This document shows, piece after piece, positions 5,583 through 62,863 of a stretch of 64,000 bases of DNA. This stretch comes from Streptomyces venezuelae (lineage in GTDB: Bacteria; Actinomycetota; Actinomycetes; Streptomycetales; Streptomycetaceae). Under the pieces are notes generated by a model. That model did no database searches and was not told the origin of the DNA. It saw nothing but the letters and a program-made list of their open reading frames with translations. How positions within the stretch are numbered: position 1 is the stretch's first letter; every line of letters starts with the position of its first letter. The stretch is taken from the NCBI RefSeq assembly GCF_008642335.1, contig NZ_CP029191.1:3596001-3660000 (forward strand). The letters are read 5' to 3'. Position numbers and translations under genes: made by a program.

Positions 5583-6227
5583 ATGGCCGACGACAAGGAC
5601 CTCCACGCCCGCTGGGCCGCGACCCTGCTCCGCGCGAGCGGAGGCGCGTCCGGCGTCGACCCCGCCCCCTACGCGGAGCGCCTCCTCGCCCGCTGGGCCG
5701 AGCCGCAGCGCCGCTACCACACCACCGACCACCTGGCGGCGGTCCTGGACCACATCGACGTCCTGGAAGAGCACGCGGAGAACCCCGAACTCGTACGCCT
5801 GGCAGCGTGGTTCCACGACGCGGTGTACGCGCCCGACCGCTCCGAGAACGAGGAGCGCTCGGCCCGCCTCGCCGAACGGGCGCTGCCCGAGGCGGGCCTG
5901 ACGGAGGAGCGGACGGCGGAGGTCGCCCGCCTGGTCCGGCTCACCGTCACGCACGACCCCGCGGAGGGTGACAGCAACGGCGAGACGCTGTGCGACGCCG
6001 ACCTGGCGATCCTCGCCGCGCCCTCGGACACGTACGCGGCGTACGCGGCGGCGGTCCGCGAGGAGTACGCGTTCGTGCCGGACGAGGCGTTCCGGCAGGG
6101 CAGGGCGGAGGTCCTGCGCGGGCTCATGGCCCTGCCCCGCCTCTTCCGCACCCCGTACGGGACGTCGAACTGGGAGAGCCCGGCGCGCGAGAACCTGGCG
6201 ACGGAACTAAAACTCCTGTCGCCCTGA
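5583..6227 (+). CDS. HD-domain metal-dependent phosphohydrolase
   Basis: 214 residues. The HD signature is visible as YHTTDH (45-50) and WFHDAVYA (77-84, metal-binding His78-Asp79), with later TVTHD and DADLAIL segments. These mark the family annotated as predicted metal-dependent HD superfamily phosphohydrolase. Such proteins are cytosolic, and the substrate is unknown. The ATG at 5583 is the first one in the conserved frame. It ends 26 nt before the next gene, which reads the same way. Confidence 0.8.
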   Translation: MADDKDLHARWAATLLRASGGASGVDPAPYAERLLARWAEPQRRYHTTDHLAAVLDHIDVLEEHAENPELVRLAAWFHDAVYAPDRSENEERSARLAERALPEAGLTEERTAEVARLVRLTVTHDPAEGDSNGETLCDADLAILAAPSDTYAAYAAAVREEYAFVPDEAFRQGRAEVLRGLMALPRLFRTPYGTSNWESPARENLATELKLLSP

Positions 6228-6253
6228 CCACACCCCTACGTACTCTCTCCCCC

Positions 6254-7411
6254 ATGTTGCACATGGGTGGGGACCAGATCGACGAGGCCGTCGCGCACAC
6301 GGCCGCGGTGCTGCGCGCGGCGGCGGACCGCGACTGGGGCGCGAAGGCGGGCGGGGTCGACTGGAGCTGTCTGAAGACGTCCGAACACATCGCGGGCGTC
6401 CTCGCCGCGTACGCGTGCCAGCTGACCGGCCGCGCCACCGACGGCTGGGTGCCCTTCGACACCTTCCTCGACGAGGGCACGGGCCCCGAGGGGGCGATCC
6501 ACGCGATCGAGGCGGCCGCGGGCCTGCTGTCGGCGGTGGTCCGTACGACACCGCGCGGTGTCCGCGCCTACCACTCCTATCCGTCGGGCGGCGCGGACGC
6601 GTCGGGGTTCGCGGCGATGGGCGTGACGGAGCTGCTGCTCCACACGTACGACATCGCGCACGCGCTGGGCGTCGACGCGGAGCCGCCCGTCTCCCTCGCC
6701 GAGGCGGTCCTGTCCCACCTCTTCCCGCACGTCCCGCCGACGCCCGCGGGCGGCACGCCCTGGACGACGCTGCTGTGGGCCACGGGCCGCGGCGACCTGC
6801 CGGACCGCGCCCGCGTCACGCAGTGGCGCTGGCACAACCCCTACGCCCTGCCCGCGGGCGAGCTCTCCCTCCGCGAGCTCACCCCCGCGGCCGCGGCGGA
6901 CCTCGCCGAGGGCGGCACGGGCGGACTCACGTGGCTCGGCGGCGCGCCCTTCGGGGGTACGCGGGCGGCCTCGGGCGCCACGTTCAACAAGTACGTCGCC
7001 GGGGTGCACCGGCCCGGATGGGGCGTATACGCCCTGGTCCGCACCGCGGACGAGGTGGCCGTCGGCGGCATGGGCTTCCACGGGCCGCCGGACGACGAGG
7101 GCTGCGTGGAGGTCGGCTACGACCTGGTGGAACCGGCGCGCGGCAACGGCTACGCGACGGTGGCCCTCCGGGCGCTCTCCGCCTGGGCCCTCACCCACCC
7201 CGAGGTCACCTCCCTGCTCGCCCTCACGACCCCCGAGAACGTGGCGTCGCAGAAGGTGGCCACGGGGGCGGGGTACGTCCGCCTGCCGGATCGGACACCG
7301 CACCGGGCGTACGGCCTGCACCGGAAGGCCCCGAGCCGCGTCATCACGACCTCCTCCGCACGCTCCACCGGCCCCGCCGAGGGTGTCACCAAAAGCCCCT
7401 CCTGGAACTAA
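6254..7411 (+). CDS. Fusion of a DinB/maleylpyruvate-isomerase-like domain with a GNAT acetyltransferase
   Basis: 385 residues in two parts. Residues 1 to about 210 are a DinB-like helical bundle; VDWSCLKTSEHIAGVLAAYA and the later TELLLHTYDIAHALG are the usual signature stretches. Residues about 220-375 form a GNAT fold of RimJ/RimL type: GVYALVRTADEVAVGGMGF, the acetyl-CoA loop EPARGNGYATVALRAL, and NVASQKVATGAGYVRL. A second DinB-like gene lies nearby at 4815-5492. An ATG at 6263 is a possible alternative start. The fusion suggests a thiol- or metal-dependent step coupled with acylation, but no substrate is apparent. Confidence 0.75.
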   Translation: MLHMGGDQIDEAVAHTAAVLRAAADRDWGAKAGGVDWSCLKTSEHIAGVLAAYACQLTGRATDGWVPFDTFLDEGTGPEGAIHAIEAAAGLLSAVVRTTPRGVRAYHSYPSGGADASGFAAMGVTELLLHTYDIAHALGVDAEPPVSLAEAVLSHLFPHVPPTPAGGTPWTTLLWATGRGDLPDRARVTQWRWHNPYALPAGELSLRELTPAAAADLAEGGTGGLTWLGGAPFGGTRAASGATFNKYVAGVHRPGWGVYALVRTADEVAVGGMGFHGPPDDEGCVEVGYDLVEPARGNGYATVALRALSAWALTHPEVTSLLALTTPENVASQKVATGAGYVRLPDRTPHRAYGLHRKAPSRVITTSSARSTGPAEGVTKSPSWN

Positions 7412-7471: not shown

Positions 7472-7852
7472 ATGACGACCGCGAACGACGACGCGACGGA
7501 CCGGATCGAGGCCCGGATCGAAGGCCGGTCGCTGGCCTTCTGGGTGGAGGCGACCGACGAGGACACGGACCTCGAAGGACCCGGCGCCGACTCCAAGGGT
7601 CTCTTCAGCCGGGACGGCGACGCCGTCCTGCGCTCCGTGCCCCTCGGCCCGCTCCGCAAGAACCTCGCCGAGACGGTCGACGCGCTGCAGCAGGTCTTCA
7701 AGGAGGTCGCGGACCGGGACGACACGCTCGCCTTCGCGGAGGCGCAGCTGTCGTTCCAGGTGACCGCGAGCGGCTCCATCCAGCTCATCGGCACCGGGCA
7801 GGTACAGGGGACCAGGGGTCTGACCCTGACGTTCAAGCGCCCGACGGCCTGA
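7472..7852 (+). CDS. Trypco1-like (CU044_2847-type) small conflict-system protein
   Basis: 126 residues. The pattern IEGRSLAFWVEATDED, then PLGPLRKNLAETVDALQQVFKEV, and a terminal ASGSIQLIGTGQVQGTRGLTLTF strand pair matches the trypsin-co-occurring domain 1 family as I recall it. These small proteins sit beside trypsin- or caspase-like effectors in bacterial conflict systems. It ends 10 nt before the GTG of the caspase/Hsp90 gene, so the two are almost surely one operon. It probably acts as an adaptor or sensor for the caspase; this rests on genomic association, not biochemistry. A GGGGTGGGG run precedes the ATG. Confidence 0.8.
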   Translation: MTTANDDATDRIEARIEGRSLAFWVEATDEDTDLEGPGADSKGLFSRDGDAVLRSVPLGPLRKNLAETVDALQQVFKEVADRDDTLAFAEAQLSFQVTASGSIQLIGTGQVQGTRGLTLTFKRPTA

Positions 7853-7862
7853 GCGCACGACG

Positions 7863-10800
7863 GTGGCGCACAAGGCCCTGCTGATCGGAGCGAGCGACTA
7901 CGACGAGCCGCTCCTCGACAGCCTGCCGTTCATCCAGGACGACCTGGCGCGGCTGCGGGACGTCCTCACCGACCGCGGCTTCCGGTCGGCGGAGATCGTC
8001 GAGAGCAAGCGGGGCATCATCCCCAGCGTCGTCCACGCCCAGGCCCGCGCGTTCCTGCGGGACGCGCGGCCGGACGACACGCTGTGGATCGTGCTCAGCG
8101 GACACGGATTCCACTTCGAGGGCCAGGACTACCTGGTCCCCGAGGACGCGACCTACGCCGTCGAGCCGTTCTCCGACGCGTGCGTCGAGATCGACTGGCG
8201 CAAGGAGTTGGGGGAGTCCCCCGCGAGCCACGTCGTCTTCCTCATCGACGCCTGCCGTGAGGGCGTGCAACGGGACGCCAAGGCGGGTCCGCCCGGCATG
8301 CAGAGCTGGACCCGCCGGGCGATCGCCGCGTCGCTGCGCCGCAAGGTGGCGTACGTATACGGATGCTCGGCGACGCAGAAGGCGCTGTTCGTCCGGGAGT
8401 CGGAGGTCGCCGCGCCCGGCTCCGACACCGGCATCGCGCCCGGCGAGTCCTTCAGCCTCTTCACGCGGGCCGTCGGCGACGCGATCGAGCAGAACCCGCA
8501 CGCGATGCGGCTGCAGGAGTTCTTCCAGGAAGTCCAGACCCGCGTCACCGCCCTGCACCGCGCCTATAAGCGGCCGTCCCGCGCCCCGCAGCAGATCAGC
8601 GTGGTCTCCGAACTGCCGCCCGGCGAGCAGGACTTCCCCCTCCTCCCCGGCCCCGACCGGCACACCGAGGCCCACCCGTGGATCCGGTCGACCGCCCAGC
8701 ACCCCGTGTGGCAGCGCACGCGCCCCGGCCCGGCGCGGGACACCCTGCACGAGCTCTGCGGCACCCTCGCGACGGGTCTCGCCGCCGCGTACGAGAAGGC
8801 GGCGACCGCGCTCCACGCCGACCCGTGGCACGACTCCGAACTGGCCCTGCGCACCCACGACAGGCTCGGCTTCCTGACGCACCGGCTCCCGGACGGCGTG
8901 GAACTGTCCCCGTCCGAGGCCGCGCTCGCCGTCCTCCTCCCCCTGGTCGAGCAGACCTTCTGGGCGCAGGAGGCGGAACGGCGCCGCGACGTCCTGTCCG
9001 ACGACGCGAAGGGGCCGGCCCCGGACCGGGACCGCTTCCGCAAGTTCGCCCAGGGCTTCCCGCGCATCAAGCGCAGGCTGCGCGCCCTGGAGCAGGCCAA
9101 GGTGACGGACGGCTCGGTGGATCGGATCCGCTGGTGGCTGTACCACCGCTGGCTGATCCAGCAGCCGGAGGTGTACGCGGCGGAGTCCCTGAAACTGCTG
9201 GTCGGCGCCCCCGCGAACGGCTCCGACCACCCCCGCTGGGTGACCGACTCCCTCTCCGAGAAGCGCCTGATGCGGTTCCTCCAGGAGCATCGCGCGGCCC
9301 CCTTCGCCACCTCACGGGGTGACGCCCTGCACGACAGCGACACGGTCGCCGCGAGCGCGCCCGACGAGCACGAGGTGCGCGAGCCGCTGGTCGCGGCGCT
9401 CACGAAGGCGGCGTACGCGATGGCGGTGGACCCCGTCGACCTCCCCGAGATCGTCGTGGAACACCTCGGGATCTCGGACAGCGTGAACCTGGACGAACTC
9501 CGCGCCACGGTCCGGGGTTCGGACTGGCGCACGTCGGGCACGGGCCGCTCCCTCAACGCGGTGTGCGGCCACCCGGCGGTGCAGATCGCCCTGCGCGAGC
9601 ACGCGTCGCGCGTGGACGGCCTGCTCCGCGACATCAACAAGGCGAACAACCCGACGCTCGCGCCCCTGTCGACGCTGCCGCCCTACGCGGACGGCTCCCG
9701 CGTCCGCCTCGGCGGCAACACCCCCGAACAGCTCTCCGACGGCATCCGCTTCCAGCTGGCGGAGGACCGGGTCCAGGAACTCCTGATGGGCGAGGAGCTG
9801 TACGGCGAACGGGACTTGGCGGTCCGCGAGGTCTACCAGAACGCGCTGGACGCGGTCCGTTACGCCGACCGCCGCCGGGAGTACCTGCGGCGCACCGGCC
9901 GCCCGACCGCGCCCTGGGAAGGCCGGATCGACTTCGTCCAGGGCGTGGGCGACGACGGCCGCCCCTACCTGGAGTGCCGCGACAACGGCATCGGCATGAG
10001 CGTACGAGAACTCCGCGACGTCTTCTCCCAGGGCGGCGCCCGCTTCGTGGACCTCCCCGAGTACATCGAGGAGCAGGCGGCCTGGGCGGAACTCCCCGAC
10101 CCGAAGATCGAACTGCACCCCAACTCCCGTTTCGGCATCGGGGTCCTCAGCTACTTCATGCTGGCCGACGAAATCGTCGTACGCACCTGCCGCCTCGGCA
10201 AGGACGGCCGCCCCGGCCGCCTGCTCCAGGTCTCGATCGCGGGCCCCGGCAACCTGTTCCGGGTGGAGGACCTGGGGCCGGGGGTGGAGTGCGGGACGAC
10301 GGTGCGACTGCTGCTGACCCAGTACCGGCGACCGACCTCATGTGTGGACGTCTTGCAGCAGGTGCTCTGGGTCGCCCCCTACCGGACGACGGCCGAGCAC
10401 GGGGCGCGTCGCCATGTGTGGGCCCCGGGCGAGGCGTCCTTGACGGGGGTGGAACTCGTCCAGACGTCGCACCTCCAGAGTGTGCCGATGAGCAAGCGCA
10501 GCAGCACCCTCCTGCCCTCGTCGGACCCGGACCTGTGGTGGGTGGACGGACGCGGGTGGCTCCTGGCGGACGGGCTGTGGGCCTCGACACGCGCCTTGGG
10601 CGAACCGCACGGCTTCGTGCTCAATCTGTACGGAGAGTGGCAGCCCGAACTGAGCGTCAACCGGTCGAGCATCCAGGATTACGACTGGGAGCGCGTCAAG
10701 GAGCGGATCAGCGCGGCCGCGCCCAGCCTCTTCACCGGACGGCAGTCCCTGGCGACGGTGTCGTGGCTCGCCCGCTTGTGCGGCATGTCCGTCGACCTGG

Positions 10801-12593
10801 CCGACTGTGTCGGCGCCCATGCGCGGGAGGCGGACGTTCCCTGGGAGCCGGGCGAAGGGGTCGTCCTGCCGTACAGCAAGGTGGGCTTCTTCCTCCCTGA
10901 TCAGGCGCTGCTCCCGCTGGTGACCGGCGACTTCCCCGCGGAGGCCAACGGGCACACAGCCTCGTACCTGTGCAACATCCCCTCACCCGTGCTGCGTTGG
11001 CGCCTCCTGACGCTGTACCGGGCAGGGCTCGGAGAGCCTCTCGCGGCCGGGGCTCCGGACTCGCCGGATCCGTGCGCCCGCCCGTCGGATCTCGCGCTGC
11101 TGAACACACACGGCAGATTCACGCGGTGGGACAAGGACCTGGCCGTCTGGCAGCACGGCCACAGCGGTCTGGGGACGCAGCCCTCACCGGCCCTGGTCCG
11201 GACCGGCGCCCCCAGCCTCAAGCTGCTCTTCCCCTGGTGCGACCCCGACAGGACGCTGACCGTCACGGACATCTTCAAGCGGGTCATGCACACCGAACTG
11301 TCCGCCGCGGACGTGGCCGGCCGGCTCACCGAACTCGGCTACCGCGTGGCGCCCTTGCACGCCTGGTCCACGGTCGTCCCCGACGACCTCCCCCTCTTGC
11401 TCACCGGTTCCTTCGGAACGTGGCTCGAACCGGGGGCACCCCTCACCGCCGCGCAGGTCTGCGTCAGCGCGGCGCGCGCCGAATGCTCCACCCCGCAGGC
11501 GGCCCAGCGGCTTCGGGAACTGGGATTCGACGTGCCGGCCGACGTCCCCGTGCGGGAAACCTGGACCGAGGAGGACCGGGTGGTGATCCAGAACCTCTGG
11601 CAGGTGAGCCCCGACCCCGCGCCCTCCGGCCTGGCAGCGGAAGTATCGCCGGGACAACTCACGAGCGTGGCCCACGAGTCCGGCTACTCCCTTCACCAGG
11701 CGGCCGAGCTGCTGAGAGCACTCGGCTTCACCGTCGAGACGCCGGACACCGAGCTGTCCGACGACGACCGGGCGATCATGGAGTACGAGGGGGCCCAGCC
11801 CTGGCCGTACCGGCCCGTGCCCTGGGCGTACGTGATGGCCGTCGCCCGCCGGTTCGGTTCACCCGAAAGCACGGCGGAACGGCTGCGCGAGCTCGGTTTC
11901 GAGGTAGGCGCCCCGCGAGCCGTCGACGAGCAACTGTCCAAGAAGGACATGGAGTTCCTCGGTTCAGTGGTGGGGCACGACCCGGAGGAGCCGCTGTCCC
12001 TGTCCGAGCTCGCGGAGGTGGCGGAGGAGTCCGGTGTGTCGCTGGCCGAGGCAGCGGCCCGGCTGACGTCCTTGGGATACGTGTGCGAGCCCGCTCAGGC
12101 GCTGCTCTCGGCGCTGCGGCTCCAGGACGTGCACATCGTGCGCTTCGGGTTCATGGTGCCCGACCCCGAGAGGCACGGTCCCATACGCCCCGCGGACCAG
12201 TACGCCGCTGCCCTGCACACGGGTCAGTACGGTCCGGAGATCGACGACATGAGGGAGGCGCTGCGCCTCCTCGGCTACGAGCTCGGCCCTGACACCGAAG
12301 CCTGGGGCAGAGAACGCAACGCGGAGTGGGACCTGACCCGCTCCCTCGAACGCGAGACCCCGGACCTCACGCTCGGGAGCTGGAACCACGTCCCCCTCAC
12401 CCTCACCACGCTGGTGACCGTCGCCGCCCGCCTCTCCCTCCCCTTCCACGACGTGGCCCGCAAAGCCACCGCCCTGGGCCTGCGCCACGAAGCGGAAGGC
12501 TGGTTCGCCCCGGAACCGGGGGAACCGGGGGAACCGGGGGAGCCGGGGGAACCGGGGGAACCGGAGGAGCCGGGGCACACCCCACCCCGCTAA
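7863..12593 (+). CDS. Caspase-like peptidase / Hsp90-type ATPase / tandem wHTH-like repeat protein
   Basis: 1,576 residues, GTG start 10 nt after the Trypco1-like gene. Residues 1-250 are a caspase-fold peptidase: KALLIGASDY opening, catalytic His81 in LSGHGFHF and Cys131 in LIDACREG. Residues 260-580 are helical with no recognised domain. Residues 590-780 are an Hsp90/GHKL ATPase: N-box EVYQNALDAV (Asn660), DNGIGM (707-712) and SRFGIGVLSYF (755-765). The Hsp90 middle region runs to about 950. Residues 1130-1545 hold about seven repeats with an A-x-R-L-x-x-L-G-[FY] core, resembling the winged-HTH array attached to such Hsp90 proteins. The tail is a GEP repeat. No membrane segment is present. 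The architecture fits an NTP-regulated suicide effector in an anti-phage or conflict system. Activating signal and protease substrate are unknown. Confidence 0.85.
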   Translation: MAHKALLIGASDYDEPLLDSLPFIQDDLARLRDVLTDRGFRSAEIVESKRGIIPSVVHAQARAFLRDARPDDTLWIVLSGHGFHFEGQDYLVPEDATYAVEPFSDACVEIDWRKELGESPASHVVFLIDACREGVQRDAKAGPPGMQSWTRRAIAASLRRKVAYVYGCSATQKALFVRESEVAAPGSDTGIAPGESFSLFTRAVGDAIEQNPHAMRLQEFFQEVQTRVTALHRAYKRPSRAPQQISVVSELPPGEQDFPLLPGPDRHTEAHPWIRSTAQHPVWQRTRPGPARDTLHELCGTLATGLAAAYEKAATALHADPWHDSELALRTHDRLGFLTHRLPDGVELSPSEAALAVLLPLVEQTFWAQEAERRRDVLSDDAKGPAPDRDRFRKFAQGFPRIKRRLRALEQAKVTDGSVDRIRWWLYHRWLIQQPEVYAAESLKLLVGAPANGSDHPRWVTDSLSEKRLMRFLQEHRAAPFATSRGDALHDSDTVAASAPDEHEVREPLVAALTKAAYAMAVDPVDLPEIVVEHLGISDSVNLDELRATVRGSDWRTSGTGRSLNAVCGHPAVQIALREHASRVDGLLRDINKANNPTLAPLSTLPPYADGSRVRLGGNTPEQLSDGIRFQLAEDRVQELLMGEELYGERDLAVREVYQNALDAVRYADRRREYLRRTGRPTAPWEGRIDFVQGVGDDGRPYLECRDNGIGMSVRELRDVFSQGGARFVDLPEYIEEQAAWAELPDPKIELHPNSRFGIGVLSYFMLADEIVVRTCRLGKDGRPGRLLQVSIAGPGNLFRVEDLGPGVECGTTVRLLLTQYRRPTSCVDVLQQVLWVAPYRTTAEHGARRHVWAPGEASLTGVELVQTSHLQSVPMSKRSSTLLPSSDPDLWWVDGRGWLLADGLWASTRALGEPHGFVLNLYGEWQPELSVNRSSIQDYDWERVKERISAAAPSLFTGRQSLATVSWLARLCGMSVDLADCVGAHAREADVPWEPGEGVVLPYSKVGFFLPDQALLPLVTGDFPAEANGHTASYLCNIPSPVLRWRLLTLYRAGLGEPLAAGAPDSPDPCARPSDLALLNTHGRFTRWDKDLAVWQHGHSGLGTQPSPALVRTGAPSLKLLFPWCDPDRTLTVTDIFKRVMHTELSAADVAGRLTELGYRVAPLHAWSTVVPDDLPLLLTGSFGTWLEPGAPLTAAQVCVSAARAECSTPQAAQRLRELGFDVPADVPVRETWTEEDRVVIQNLWQVSPDPAPSGLAAEVSPGQLTSVAHESGYSLHQAAELLRALGFTVETPDTELSDDDRAIMEYEGAQPWPYRPVPWAYVMAVARRFGSPESTAERLRELGFEVGAPRAVDEQLSKKDMEFLGSVVGHDPEEPLSLSELAEVAEESGVSLAEAAARLTSLGYVCEPAQALLSALRLQDVHIVRFGFMVPDPERHGPIRPADQYAAALHTGQYGPEIDDMREALRLLGYELGPDTEAWGRERNAEWDLTRSLERETPDLTLGSWNHVPLTLTTLVTVAARLSLPFHDVARKATALGLRHEAEGWFAPEPGEPGEPGEPGEPGEPEEPGHTPPR
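12510..12575 (+). repeat. In-frame 9-bp tandem repeat encoding a Gly-Glu-Pro tail
   Basis: Tandem copies of a GGGGAACCG-type unit close the caspase/Hsp90 gene and encode GEPGEPGEPGEPGEPEEPG. Because the unit is 9 bp, slippage would change tail length without breaking the frame. The tail is probably disordered. Confidence 0.8.
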
Positions 12594-12856
12594 GCCGGCC
12601 GCCCCTTAGGCCTCCGCAACCCCGCCCCCGTAAGCCTCCGCACCAGTTCCTTCGAGCCGATCTCCACCGCGCCCGCCCGCACCGCGTCCGCGTACCGCTC
12701 CGCGGGCACGTCGTAGTGGTCGCGTTCGAAGGCGCGCGGCGGGCACCCCACCGACGCCGCGAACGCGTGCAGCTCCTCGAAGGAGACGTCGCTGACCAGG
12801 TGGGACCACATGCGGCCGTGCCCCGGCCACGTGGGCGGGTCTATGTAGACGGTCAC
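12590..12856 (-). CDS. DUF4031 domain protein
   Basis: 88 residues starting (GTG) MTVYIDPPTWPGHGRMWSHL and continuing with SFEELHAFAASVGCPPRAFERDHYDVP and a short basic tail. This matches the short DUF4031 family of unknown role. Its TAG stop overlaps the TAA stop of the caspase gene by a few bases, so the two converge with no space for a terminator. The upstream neighbour at 12882 reads the same way. Confidence 0.8.
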   Translation of the reverse strand: MTVYIDPPTWPGHGRMWSHLVSDVSFEELHAFAASVGCPPRAFERDHYDVPAERYADAVRAGAVEIGSKELVRRLTGAGLRRPKGRPA

Positions 12857-12881
12857 GTCGGACTCCCCACCGGGTAGACGG

Positions 12882-13247
12882 TCACGTCAGGCCCCCCACC
12901 GGCGCCACCACCACACCCGCCTTGCCGCACACCCAGTGCGGGTCGGGCCCGAGCTCCGGTTCCACGTCCAGCGCGTGCGGGTCGCCCGAGCCGCAGACCG
13001 GGCACAGCGGCCACCGCCCGTACCGCTCCAGGAGCGCGTCCTGGACGTCCTGGGCGACGAGACCGGCGACGTACTCGATGCCCTCCGGCCACTGCTCGAC
13101 CCACCAGCGGCGGTGCGCCACCGATTCCTCGACGAGCGAGACGACCTCGGCCTGGGCGACCTCGCGGGCCACCAGGTCGGCGAGGACAAGGGCGCGAGCG
13201 GCGTGCAACGCCTGCTCCAGGGGGTCGATCGTGTCCATGCAGTCCAT
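12882..13247 (-). CDS. Conserved hypothetical protein with a CxxC motif
   Basis: 121 residues. The first 75 are helical (ALHAARALVLADLVAREVAQ, then HRRWWVEQWPEGIEYVAGL). A late LCPVCGSGDPH segment and a WVCGKAG cysteine suggest a small zinc site. I do not recognise the family. It ends 25 nt upstream of the DUF4031 gene. A short stretch containing gacggtcacgtc is repeated at the start of DUF4031 and the end of this gene, a small local duplication. Confidence 0.6.
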   Translation of the reverse strand: MDCMDTIDPLEQALHAARALVLADLVAREVAQAEVVSLVEESVAHRRWWVEQWPEGIEYVAGLVAQDVQDALLERYGRWPLCPVCGSGDPHALDVEPELGPDPHWVCGKAGVVVAPVGGLT

Positions 13248-13332
13248 TGTCGCCCCGTACGCGACCCGACGGAAAAGGACCGAGGTCCCGGGCGAGGTCG
13301 GGACCTCAGGGGTCTTGACCGGCCACCAGTCC

Positions 13333-13376
13333 GAAAATATCTTTCAGATGTGACCCATGATGTGAAGGAAATTTTC
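13333..13376. promoter_or_regulatory. Candidate operator of the RpiR/MurR regulator
   Basis: Two related AT-rich blocks, GAAAATATCTTTCA (13333-13346) and TGAAGGAAATTTTC (13363-13376), are inverted with respect to each other (12 of 14 positions pair). They flank the putative GTG start of the rpiR-like gene. They stand out in a region of more than 70 percent GC. The position suggests autoregulation and control of the murQ operon by MurNAc-6-phosphate, which is inference. Confidence 0.45.
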
Positions 13377-14276
13377 GCGGACGCCGCGCCCCCCGCCCCC
13401 GCCGCCCTCGCGGCCAAGGTGCGGACCCTCGCGCCGTCGATGACCCGCTCCATGCAGCGGGTCGCCGAGGCCGTCGCCGGCGACCCCGCGGGATGCGCCG
13501 CCCTCACGGTCACCGGACTCGCCGAGCTCACCGGCACCAGCGAGGCGACCGTCGTGCGCACCGCCCGCCTCCTCGGCTACCCCGGCTACCGCGACCTGCG
13601 CCTCGCCCTGGCCGGCCTCGCAGCCCAGCAGCAGTCGGGCCGCGCCCCCGCCGTCACCGCGGACATCGCCGTCGACGACCCGATCGCGGACGTCGTCGCG
13701 AAGCTGGCCTACGACGAGCAGCAGACCCTCGCCGACACCGCCGCCGGACTGGACACCGTGCAGCTCGGCGCCGCCGTCGCCGCGCTCGCCACCGCCCGCC
13801 GCGTGGAGATCTACGGCGTCGCCGCATCGGGCCTCGTCGCCCAGGACCTCGCCCAGAAGCTGCTCCGCATCGGGCACATCGCGCACGCGCACTCCGACCC
13901 GCACCTCGCCGTCACCAACGCCGTGACGCTGCGCGCCAAGGACGTGGCGATCGCGATCACCCACTCCGGTTCGACGGGCGACGTCATCGAACCCCTCCGC
14001 GTCGCCTTCGAGCACGGCGCGACGACGATCGCGATCACCGGACAGCCCGGCGCGGCCGTCTCCCAGTACGCCGATCACATACTGACCACCTCCACGGCCC
14101 GCGAGAGCGAGCTCCGCCCCGCCGCGATGTCGTCCCGTACGAGCCAGCTCCTCGTCGTGGACTGCCTGTTCGTGGGCGTGGCGCAGCGGACGTACGAGAC
14201 GGCGGCGCCCGCGCTCGCCGCGTCCTACGAAGCGCTCGCCCACCGCCACCGCCCCCGCAGCGGCGGCAACCGCTGA
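13350..14276 (+). CDS. MurR/RpiR family transcriptional regulator of MurNAc use
   Basis: 308 residues. The N-terminal HTH_6 domain (about residues 20-95) contains SMQRVAEAVAGDP and LAELTGTSEATVVRTARLLGYPGYRDLR. The C-terminal SIS domain (130-270) contains VEIYGVAASGLVAQDLAQKLLRIG and ITHSGSTGDVIEPL, the phosphosugar site. It is followed 52 nt later by murQ and then a PTS permease, so MurNAc-6-phosphate is the likely effector. GTG at 13350 is taken as start; GTG at 13362 is an alternative. The flanking inverted repeat overlaps the start, which suggests a very short leader. Confidence 0.85.
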   Translation: MTHDVKEIFADAAPPAPAALAAKVRTLAPSMTRSMQRVAEAVAGDPAGCAALTVTGLAELTGTSEATVVRTARLLGYPGYRDLRLALAGLAAQQQSGRAPAVTADIAVDDPIADVVAKLAYDEQQTLADTAAGLDTVQLGAAVAALATARRVEIYGVAASGLVAQDLAQKLLRIGHIAHAHSDPHLAVTNAVTLRAKDVAIAITHSGSTGDVIEPLRVAFEHGATTIAITGQPGAAVSQYADHILTTSTARESELRPAAMSSRTSQLLVVDCLFVGVAQRTYETAAPALAASYEALAHRHRPRSGGNR

Positions 14277-14328
14277 CCCCTTTCCCCGACCAGCCCCCCG
14301 CACCGGACACGAAAGAGCCGCAGACGCC

Positions 14329-15300
14329 ATGACCTCGACCACCGACGCGACCGGCACGAGCGAGCCGCGCGACACCTACGGAGAACTCCGCGCCCAGCTG
14401 GCCACCCTCACCACCGAGGCCTTCCGGCCCGAGCTCTCCGACATCGACCGGCTGCCCACCGAGGAGATCGCGAAGATCATGAACGGTGAGGACGCCTCCG
14501 TGGCCACCGCCGTCGCCGCCCAGCTCCCCGCCATCGCCGCCGCCATCGACGGCACCGCGGAGCGCATGGCCCGCGGCGGCCGGCTGATCTACGCGGGCGC
14601 GGGCACGGCCGGACGCCTCGGCGTACTCGACGCGTCCGAGTGCCCGCCCACGTTCAACACCGACCCGAGCGAGGTCGTCGGACTCATCGCGGGCGGACCG
14701 AGCGCCATGGTCAAGGCGGTCGAGGGCGCGGAGGACAGCAAGGAGCTCGCCGCCGACGACCTGGAGGACCTGAACCTCACCGAGGACGACGTCGTCGTGG
14801 GCATCTCCGCGTCGGGCCGGACCCCCTACGCGATCGGCGCCGTCGAGTACGCCCGCTCCCGCTACGGCGCGCTCACCATCGGCCTCTCCTGCAACGCGGA
14901 CAGCGCGCTCGCCGCGGCGGCCGAGCACGGCATCGAGGTCGTCGTGGGCCCCGAACTCCTCACCGGCTCGACCCGCCTCAAGGCGGGCACGGCCCAGAAG
15001 CTCGTCCTCAACATGCTGTCGACGATCACGATGATCCGCCTCGGCAAGACGTACGGAAACCTGATGGTGGACGTGCGCGCGTCCAACGAGAAGCTGCGGG
15101 CCCGCTCCCGCCGCATCGTCGCCCTCGCCACCGGCGCCTCCGACGAGGAGATCGAGGCGGCCCTCGCCGCGACCGACGGGGAGGTGAAGAACGCCATCCT
15201 CACCATCCTCGGCCAGGTCGACGGCCCCACCGCCGCCGAACTCCTCGCCACGTCCGACGGCCACCTCCGAGCGGCCCTGGACAACTCCCGTAAGAGCTGA
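14329..15300 (+). CDS. murQ: N-acetylmuramic acid 6-phosphate etherase
   Basis: 323 residues, the normal length for MurQ. The SIS core shows RLIYAGAGTAGRLGVLDASE and ECPPTF, followed by GISASGRTPYAIGAVEYAR and TRLKAGTAQKLVLNMLST, all characteristic. The enzyme cleaves the D-lactyl ether of MurNAc-6-phosphate to give GlcNAc-6-phosphate, feeding NagA (encoded at 32392-33531) in cell-wall recycling. It lies between the RpiR regulator and the PTS permease on one strand. A ribosome site is weak (CGAAAGAG upstream). Confidence 0.95.
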   Translation: MTSTTDATGTSEPRDTYGELRAQLATLTTEAFRPELSDIDRLPTEEIAKIMNGEDASVATAVAAQLPAIAAAIDGTAERMARGGRLIYAGAGTAGRLGVLDASECPPTFNTDPSEVVGLIAGGPSAMVKAVEGAEDSKELAADDLEDLNLTEDDVVVGISASGRTPYAIGAVEYARSRYGALTIGLSCNADSALAAAAEHGIEVVVGPELLTGSTRLKAGTAQKLVLNMLSTITMIRLGKTYGNLMVDVRASNEKLRARSRRIVALATGASDEEIEAALAATDGEVKNAILTILGQVDGPTAAELLATSDGHLRAALDNSRKS

Positions 15301-17039: not shown

Positions 17040-17417
17040 ATGGACGCCCCCTACAACATGGAGCTCGAGCCAGAAGTCCGCGCCTGGCTCGAGCTCCTCA
17101 CCGATCGGCACTACCGAAAGGTCGAGGAGTACGCGGACCTGCTCGCGAGCCTGGGCACGGCCACTCCCATGCCTTTCGCGCGCCCCCTGCGCGAGGGGGT
17201 GTACGAGCTCCGGCCGACGCTGAACGGGCAGGACGCGCGAATCACGTACTGGTTCACGGCCGACCGCCGCATCGTGTTGCTCACGGTCTTCCACAAGACC
17301 CGGATACTGGAAAGGGAGCAAGTCGATCGTGCGGTACGGGTTCGCAAAGTGTGCGAGAGCGAGCACGGCCCAGCCCATCGGACATACGACCGAGCCGAGG
17401 ACGGAGACACGAAGTGA
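17040..17417 (+). CDS. higB: RelE/HigB-type toxin (Gp49-like)
   Basis: 125 residues. The core FARPLREGVYELRP, ARITYWFTADRRIVLLTVFHKT and a final run of basic helix residues (EREQVDRAVRVRK) is the phage Gp49-like branch of the RelE superfamily, ribosome-dependent mRNA interferases. I start it at ATG 17040. An upstream in-frame ATG (17010) lies inside the operator palindrome and is unlikely. The stop overlaps the antitoxin GTG (GTGA), toxin-first order as in HigBA systems. The C-terminal 20 residues extend past the usual domain end. Confidence 0.85.
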   Translation: MDAPYNMELEPEVRAWLELLTDRHYRKVEEYADLLASLGTATPMPFARPLREGVYELRPTLNGQDARITYWFTADRRIVLLTVFHKTRILEREQVDRAVRVRKVCESEHGPAHRTYDRAEDGDTK

Positions 17418-17749
17418 GCCATACCCGGTGGAAGCTGGCCCGCGAGAGGAAGCTCCTCGAAGGCCACGTGGAGGCGCCCGAGGCGGCGGCCGAGCGCGCC
17501 GAGATCCGCCTCGCGATGACCTTCGCCAAGGCTGTCTACGATCGCCGCACCGAACTCGGCCTCACCCAGGCGGAAGTTGCCGAGCGCGCAGGCCTGACCC
17601 AGGCCAAGATCTCGCGCATCGAAGGCGCGGACGCAGTCCCGACCCTGCCCCTTCTGCGCCGCATCGCCATGGCCATGAACGCCTCCCTGAACATCGCCCT
17701 CGACGCGGACCACGAAGAGGTCAGGTTCATCGGTCACCCAGCGGCCTGA
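17414..17749 (+). CDS. higA: XRE-family antitoxin (HigA-like)
   Basis: 111 residues starting (GTG) MSHTRWKLARERKLLEGHVE. The helix-turn-helix lies at about residues 42-95: RTELGLTQAEVAERAGLTQ followed by KISRIEGADAVPTLPLLRRIA. The basic N-terminal arm probably contacts the toxin. Its start overlaps the toxin stop codon, implying translational coupling, with GGAGA upstream. It should neutralise HigB and repress the operon through the 17006-17029 palindrome. Confidence 0.85.
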   Translation: MSHTRWKLARERKLLEGHVEAPEAAAERAEIRLAMTFAKAVYDRRTELGLTQAEVAERAGLTQAKISRIEGADAVPTLPLLRRIAMAMNASLNIALDADHEEVRFIGHPAA

Positions 17750-24342: not shown

Positions 24343-24663
24343 GGAGGCGAGGCCCTTTCTCCTCATCTTCCTCGCGACGCATCTCGCCGCGAGACGGAAT
24401 TGGCACCTTCGCTAGCCGGGAGCCTCGCTGCGCTTGACTGCGCGAGACCGACTGGGTGGTTGCCGGGGCTTCAACGGGCCGTATCCCTCTGCCCCTCTGG
24501 ATGAGCGGTATTCGATTATGGGTTTCGATTGTCGTAGGCGAACGCGGTGGTGACCCCGACATGCGATGGCCACCGGCGTTGTTCAAGACTGTAACCGAAG
24601 CCCCGGACCCTTGAGATAGTCGTCCGAACCGCGAGATGGATCACATATGGGAGGACCACGACC
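24343..24663. other. Divergent control region of thrC and gpgS
   Basis: No gene seen in this 321-nt gap. A reverse-strand TTCGCC (24537-24542) and CATAAT (24515-24520) pair, 16 nt apart, could be the thrC promoter. The AT-rich centre at 24508-24535 contains two TTCGATT copies about 13 nt apart. Nothing definite was found for gpgS. Confidence 0.35.
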
Positions 24664-62795: not shown

Positions 62796-62811
62796 GGTGG
62801 ACTACACCACT
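62796..62811 (+). promoter_or_regulatory. DasR-like site upstream of msiK
   Basis: GGTGGACTACACCACT matches 12 of 16 consensus positions and is 52 nt upstream of the msiK ATG. It shares TGGACT with nagK and ACACCAC with the site at 30159. DasR control of msiK would couple transport energy to amino-sugar supply. Confidence 0.6.
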
Positions 62812-62863
62812 CCCTCTACTCGGATCGTCCGGCACGTTCCTGCCGGTGAAGGGGGCCCTCACC

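Follow-up and report, generated by a model that had tools for sequence, protein, structure and literature searches.

Immune receptors of the NLR and STAND type combine an effector, an NTPase switch and hypervariable C-terminal repeats. Here we analyse a two-gene locus of Streptomyces venezuelae reminiscent of these receptors, although its NTPase is of the GHKL/Hsp90 type and its repeats are of the wHTH type. The locus lies in a 64,000-nt stretch of DNA (GCF_008642335.1, NZ_CP029191.1, 3,596,001-3,660,000), referred to as the window, and coordinates are window positions unless another locus is named. It consists of a small Pepco-domain gene directly upstream of a gene for a chain with caspase, iHD-CE, Hsp90 and wHTH parts, a two-gene unit claimed in an earlier note on this DNA and upheld here. 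We found that evolution has divided the chain around residue 850: Pepco and the part from caspase to ATPase are constant, while the middle-like region and the repeats diverge fast and are exchanged in place.

In the NTP-dependent conflict systems described by Kaur et al. 2020 (PMC7159879), a paper that defines Trypco1/2 and an EACC1-caspase system and names MoxR-vWA and GTPases as switches, an NTPase is likewise combined with a caspase or trypsin peptidase and a small peptidase-co-occurring partner (there Trypco1/2) in multicellular hosts. Hsp90, HD-CE and Pepco are, however, absent from the main text of that paper, where the two-gene caspase system pairs with membrane EACC1 and not with Pepco. 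The terms searched for this system were absent from Kaur et al. 2021. The Canu caspase-nuclease defence system (PMC12799240) shares with this locus a bacterial caspase, which in Canu has a MALT1-like domain and a role in defence; the Ig-like fold and pro-nuclease partner given there for Canu are unmatched here. Sensors diversified by diversity-generating retroelements (DGRs; PMC10907252) resemble the chain in that a variable sensor is joined to an NTPase and to a peptidase or TIR effector. In these sensors, however, diversity comes from targeted hypermutation of lectin-type folds, whereas here a whole half of the gene has diverged, at synonymous as well as nonsynonymous positions, and its exchange is seen in trees. 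In the open-access literature we found no function, constant/variable split or effector swapping for iHD-CE/wHTH-Hsp90 proteins.

All named domains of the Pfam iHD-CE and wHTH-HSP90_Na-associated proteins match the chain well over cut-off, with PF24401 at 297.7 bits (cut-off 27), PF24410 at 109.1 bits (cut-off 23) and the Hsp90 N domain between them, and the chain is thus a member of this group. The Pfam names probably stem from a J Bacteriol paper of 2020. Homologues are annotated as 'caspase family protein', 'HD domain-containing protein' or 'wHTH domain-containing protein'. The locus has the following parts.

7472..7852, + strand: Pepco-domain gene, 126 amino acids (aa), partner of the caspase gene (Pfam PF24393, E 2.4e-18)
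7863..12593, + strand: caspase / iHD-CE / Hsp90 / wHTH protein, 1576 aa, GTG start
7863..8651, + strand: caspase domain, residues 1-263 (His81 codon 8103-8105, Cys131 codon 8253-8255)
8679..9707, + strand: iHD-CE domain, residues 273-615 (Pfam PF24401, E 1.6e-88)
9723..10352, + strand: Hsp90 N-terminal ATPase, residues 621-830 (Glu656, Asn660, Asp707 and Gly711 invariant)
10353..11252, + strand: Hsp90 middle-like region, residues 831-1130, start of the variable half (Arg934 invariant; Foldseek matches to TRAP1/Hsp90 N plus middle)
11253..12497, + strand: variable wHTH repeats, residues about 1131-1545 (PF24410 in five stretches; six L..LG[FY] motifs)
12512..12575, + strand: 9-nt tandem repeat encoding the GEP tail

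Constant and variable halves of the chain

We compared 121 chain sequences (the query and the best 120 of 303 homologues), of which the 116 longer than 1400 aa were used for conservation and pair counts. Of their 6670 pairs, 364 reached 85% identity or more over residues 1-830; in 206 of the 364, identity over residues 831-1545 was below 65%. Over residues 1-800, 232 pairs were at least 90% identical, and residues 861-1545 were less identical in every one of them, by 7-51 points (median 29, gaps scored as differences). The changepoint in these pairs lay at a median of residue 850, and within 810-860 in 79%. The contrast is strong in single pairs, such as P0001/P0008 (98.4% in the N-terminal vs. 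49.6% in the C-terminal part) and P0058/P0062 (99.4% vs. 59.3%), and it is seen within one species: three S. venezuelae strains (P0002-P0004) share 96.5-99.5% vs. 74-76%. As the boundary separates the Hsp90 N part from the middle-like part, the region by which Hsp90 binds its clients falls in the variable half.

The partner gene follows the constant half. In 10 homologous loci Pepco tracked the N-terminal part: the Pepco beside P0008 is 98.4% identical to that of the window, and in the four other loci with C-terminal identity near 50% the value is 88-94%. Pepco and chain genes were linked here through the lengths of their contigs. Within the repeats, the motif is conserved, with an entropy of 0.2-1.0 at its L, L, G and F/Y, vs. 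2.8-3.1 bits at positions such as -16, -12, -6 and +6; it occurs at residues 1155, 1217, 1284, 1341, 1401 and 1467. The repeats would thus form a fixed frame with a putatively variable surface.

The drop was also seen when relatives were compared group by group. In pairs at least 70% identical in the N-terminal part, the C-terminal part was lower in 81 of 81, with a mean drop of 19-26 points (53 pairs with Pepco and caspase, 7 of other caspase chains with tail, 9 of tail-less caspases and 12 without caspase). Seven caspase-less Dactylosporangium loci gave the opposite pattern, with the C-terminal part lower in 1 of 21 pairs and a mean difference of -7.9 points; the variability is therefore not built into the fold.

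Exchange of the C-terminal half between lineages

The two halves have different histories. P0001 and P0008 are sisters in the N-part tree (support 99/96), vs. the C-part tree, where P0008 pairs with P0013 (97/96) within a separate group that includes P0010, P0012 and P0014. In approximately unbiased (AU) tests the C-part group was rejected by the N-part data (p 2.4e-5, log-likelihood 243 worse) and the N-part pairs were rejected by the C-part data (p 1e-165 for {1,8} and 9e-6 for {6,12}); the tested groups were named after inspection of the trees, which weakens these p values, but the likelihood gaps are large.

At the DNA level, the loci of S. olindensis and S. lomondensis (L078/L080) are 92.5% identical upstream, 94.9% in Pepco, 95.7% in the N-terminal part, 72.4% in the C-terminal part and 94.5% downstream. 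Alignment windows below 80% identity made up 6 of 6 inside the C-terminal part of this pair and 0 of 43 outside it. For L083/L084 the corresponding identities are 92.9, 95.7, 95.3, 82.4 and 94.3%. From the N- to the C-terminal part, the synonymous rate (dS) rose from 0.10 to 0.58 and from 0.13 to 0.40 in two pairs, and from 0.24 to 0.41 between the window and L042; the nonsynonymous rate (dN) rose from 0.024 to 0.27, from 0.025 to 0.148 and, against L042, from 0.029 to 0.137. Raised dS in one half of a gene between conserved flanks is indicative of replacement by a diverged allele. As dS is raised along the whole half, there is no call for a DGR, which was not searched for.

Caspase, iHD-CE and Hsp90 domains

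The earlier note had assigned His81 and Cys131 to a caspase-type peptidase, and the pair does sit in a caspase fold. His81 is present in 115 and Cys131 in all 116 of the full-length homologues, as are Asp129, Asn660 and Asp707 (116/116 each); Asp27 is nearly invariant. In the structure model a low-confidence loop, residues 133-159, directly follows Cys131. The caspase thus looks active, going by its conserved residues and the model. It may favour a basic P1 residue, a guess from metacaspases and MALT1. A generic caspase model was the only PADLOC match of the protein (20.9 bits), and the caspase_w_EACC1 model stayed below its cut-off (52.8 vs. 140 bits).

In the iHD-CE stretch, the alignment of relatives has H570 as its sole invariant His and D585 as its sole invariant Asp, and consequently lacks a conserved H..HD..D set. 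The HD domain is apparently inactive, which fits the name iHD-CE.

The Hsp90/GHKL ATPase with intact motifs, also proposed earlier, was confirmed in that Glu656 and Asn660 of the N-box and Asp707 and Gly711 of G1 are invariant in 37 of 37 diverse relatives. Full-length Hsp90 models scored far under cut-off (HtpG/HSP90 30.4 vs. 371 bits; HSP90 family protein 35.9 vs. 455), and the middle region was not recovered by sequence search, in which matches reach little past the N domain. In Foldseek, the model spans Hsp90 N plus middle chains (TRAP1/Hsp90; 4z1i_A, TMt 0.57 over 359 columns). Arg934, in the motif ELSVNR, is invariant in 37/37 alignment rows and presumably resembles the catalytic Arg of the Hsp90 middle domain.

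Pepco as a partner of peptidases

The small partner had been described as Trypco1-like, a label that we replace. Trypco1 (PF19493) gave no Pfam match even at E 1; Pepco matched instead, with PF24393 at 67.1 bits vs. a cut-off of 27. Likeness to Trypco1 is remote at best: hhalign gave weak probabilities of 10% in one comparison and 27% in another, the latter with a score of 24.3, compared with 15.3 when the profile was reversed and a maximum of 12.9 over 30 column shuffles. The low-confidence Pepco model (pLDDT 66) had no PDB match at E 0.001. We found 174 homologues of the window's Pepco.

Among 199 Streptomyces genomes, Pepco occurs in 21 (20 over cut-off), at 22 places. Twelve adjoin a caspase-iHD-Hsp90 gene (in pieces in L068), three (L227, L231, L233) adjoin a caspase of the same type without iHD, Hsp90 and wHTH (confirmed by Pfam for L227 and L231), and five (L228, L229, L230, L232, L234) lie directly behind a CHAT-domain gene; of the remaining two, L235 lacks a recognised peptidase and L239 is a relic. 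A DNA search added two Hsp90-less caspase loci with Pepco (L236, L237) and one with caspase pieces and no Pepco match (L238). Since Pepco stands beside Hsp90-less caspases and CHAT genes, it is, on its gene neighbourhoods, a companion of clan-CD peptidases rather than of Hsp90.

Some of these loci have features of their own. The CHAT-linked ones, a separate Pepco system, carry an extra gene of ~500 aa in front in four of five cases. L227:3693-5198 combines Pepco with a caspase whose chain also contains a DnaB-binding domain of the DnaG type (PF08278, E 2.3e-9), possibly a helicase-sensing caspase. Instead of Hsp90, the caspase chains that accompany Pepco in L231, L233, L236 and L237 have a proline-rich stretch as well as, on visual inspection, a membrane helix.

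Distribution and swapping of effectors

PF24401 in any form was found in 34 of the 199 Streptomyces genomes. In a scan of named genome contigs, the best 80 of 372 relatives belong mostly to Actinomycetota, with an archaeal Methanosarcinales bin, a Nealsonbacteria bin and two cyanobacterial assemblies in addition. Outside Actinomycetota, the Pepco and caspase-iHD-Hsp90 pair is present in L144, L147 and L150 (archaeal, Nealsonbacteria and cyanobacterial, one each); in the second cyanobacterial locus (L148) Pepco precedes a chain without a detected caspase. Over 125 loci, duplicates included, 81 have a caspase, 46 have Pepco and 45 have both. Filtering removed chains with a C-terminal part below 350 aa in one open reading frame, duplicates (L077, L087, L091, L094, L155) and contig-end loci (L133, L074, L093). 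The resulting 109 sequences, L148 not among them, comprise 36 with Pepco (all with caspase), 33 with caspase and no Pepco, and 40 with neither; the comparison of constant and variable parts between groups likewise left out the short chains, the duplicates, L133 and L074.

The N-terminal effector changes among relatives. Seven Frankiaceae chains (L098-L102, L108, L118) begin with a Pfam TIR domain, and the caspase Cys is gone by alignment in 7/7, so that TIR has probably replaced the caspase as effector. A second caspase subtype carries CCFSG in five loci and CCFAG in one, and further relatives have a short or unrecognised N-terminus. Tail-less caspase forms, lacking wHTH, are followed in 14 loci by a conserved gene of ~115 aa and in 17 by a membrane-like one of ~150-220 aa (e.g., L034:12733-13712); no Pfam family was over cut-off in the one and two examples of these scanned. 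Together with the variable C-terminal half, effector swapping, likewise missed in the first reading, gives the strongest hint of a conflict role.

Several single loci were also recorded. L079:524-10837 has a tandem arrangement of Pepco and two successive caspase-Hsp90 genes. P0028 and P0118 share the same longest contig of 13,516 bp. Caspase-less Lentzea relatives (L112, L113, L116, L123, L127, L132) adjoin a gene that we take to resemble the Pup ligase gene pafA. L117, in which an in-frame stop separates the Hsp90 part from the repeats (a split gene or a nonsense change), was left unused. Viral carriage was rejected: the viral contig collection gave one weak relative, the 1071-aa HD-CE + HATPase protein of L226:3852-7064 (35% identity over 147 aa), with no caspase match.

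A fixed chromosomal site

The pair occupies a site with the following edges.

5583..7411, + strand: HD-domain protein and GNAT protein, upstream flank, left edge of the site
12590..15300: downstream flank, right edge of the site, with a DUF4031 gene (-), a small Pfam-less gene (-), an RpiR/SIS regulator (+) and a MurQ-like SIS protein (+)

All 13 Streptomyces loci of this type that were tested (L045, L055, L057, L078, L080-L086, L088, L090) have the pair flanked by the window's HD-domain gene on one side and its DUF4031/small-gene pair on the other; in L084 and L088 the right side shows the small gene alone. Three other Streptomyces loci (L053, L071, L072) have different neighbours, and the window's flanks were missing in 3/3 tested loci of other genera. 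In 20 Streptomyces genomes without PF24401 the site stretches were free of Pepco and caspase matches, and the HD-to-DUF4031 order was kept in 19; L208 is rearranged and L225 has no regulator match. At the usual site in L239 (2491-3159) the start of Pepco is fused straight to pieces of the wHTH repeats and the caspase-to-Hsp90 stretch is missing, which, judging from these remnants, is a loss in place.

Elsewhere in the window, Rfam matches mark a SAM riboswitch (24360-24507, - strand) and an msiK RNA (62804-62861, + strand), and two adjoining small genes at 17040-17749 presumably encode a RelE/HigB-type toxin and an HTH antitoxin.

A putative immune-type receptor and its alternatives

On balance, the locus probably encodes an immune-type receptor with a variable sensor half, an Hsp90 switch, a caspase effector and a Pepco partner. 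We infer for it a course of sensing, clamp closure, ATP gating, proteolysis and suicide activity, with phage defence as its purpose. The variable half would bind a fast-evolving ligand, and binding would lead to closure and dimerisation of the Hsp90 clamp on ATP. The iHD-CE domain would pass the state of the clamp to the caspase, which would be activated by proximity or release, and Pepco may serve as the caspase's own substrate, inhibitor or adaptor. As a result, the infected compartment of the hypha would die or be arrested. Products of phages or other invaders seem the likeliest ligands, those of phages above all, although, by sequence, mycelial self/non-self recognition would fit the allele pattern equally.

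Several observations weigh against this reading. Caspase-less relatives outside Dactylosporangium vary too (12/12 pairs), and variability is thus independent of the caspase. The L083/L084 pair is less clean, with 11 of 38 alignment windows below 80% identity outside and 1 of 6 inside the C-terminal part; those outside lie mostly in one stretch further downstream, where the contigs differ. Coupling of Pepco with the caspase (Fisher p 1e-9) largely reflects shared ancestry, as the sign test on 7 independent pairs was not significant. The defence-island setting raised in the earlier note was not borne out at the window's site: among ten neighbours no defence family was recognised and no nuclease family was found by Pfam, six belonging to families of metabolic, regulatory or unknown function and four matching no family. 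Around 16 loci, 64 neighbours were picked from 82 listed proteins (without the Pepco genes and some others, and with three window genes shortened at the start or end); 23 PADLOC models matched 1-3 members each, many weakly, the best being mad3 (6e-30, two members) and AriA (6e-15, two members), and Pfam gave general families for the most part. As to plasmid carriage, a near-mode search gave no plasmid match. The evidence on the earlier expectation that homologues would not be housekeeping genes is mixed. The family is patchy and mostly hypervariable, but some caspase-less relatives lie at conserved places beside housekeeping genes, and the Dactylosporangium relatives are without a variable half.

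An unlikely alternative is allorecognition, in which the variable half would report self vs. non-self between hyphae or colonies and the caspase would kill incompatible contacts, a parallel to fungal heterokaryon incompatibility genes. Allele-like differences at a single chromosomal site, two deep C-terminal types common to lineages with similar N-terminal parts, large differences inside one named species and death-type effectors all agree with it. It is harder to reconcile with the presence of PF24401 in just 34/199 Streptomyces genomes and with relatives in archaeal, cyanobacterial and candidate-phylum bacterial assemblies.

Less likely again is relaxed constraint, by which the C-terminal half would be a drifting scaffold of little importance, exchanged by ordinary homologous recombination. 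In the three closest pairs the C-part dN/dS is below 1 (0.33-0.47), so that positive selection is not supported, and the GEP tail is of low complexity; relaxed constraint may add to the signal of this half. Yet a ratio below 1 also means that the half is still constrained, and drift alone does not raise dS locally, as from 0.10 to 0.58 here between flanks that are both 92-95% identical. The half retains its repeat motif positions and invariant residues scattered along it, Arg934 among them, and it is well kept in the Dactylosporangium clade. Proteostasis, with an Hsp90-caspase trimming misfolded proteins under stress, is very unlikely: the Hsp90 N and middle-like folds, the fixed site and an htpG-like gene adjoining the L038 relative would suit it, but presence is patchy, full-length Hsp90 models fall far under cut-off and, unlike in a general chaperone, the would-be client-binding half is hypervariable.

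Extending the receptor reading to the whole family is more tentative. Filamentous and other prokaryotes may possess an NLR-like family with an Hsp90-type clamp as switch, a sensor half (Hsp90 middle region and wHTH repeats) renewed by recombination at a fixed chromosomal locus and swapped effectors (caspase, TIR) at the other end, which would make it a bacterial analogue of the hypervariable R or het genes. If so, immune receptors would use Hsp90 clamps as switches alongside STAND NTPases, and Streptomyces would have a naturally allelic receptor with its specificity in a swappable half of 700 residues. Close strains, some of them conspecific, share a near-identical effector with different sensor halves, which would make the search for ligands direct, and Pepco, a family of no known function, is now tied to caspase and CHAT peptidases.

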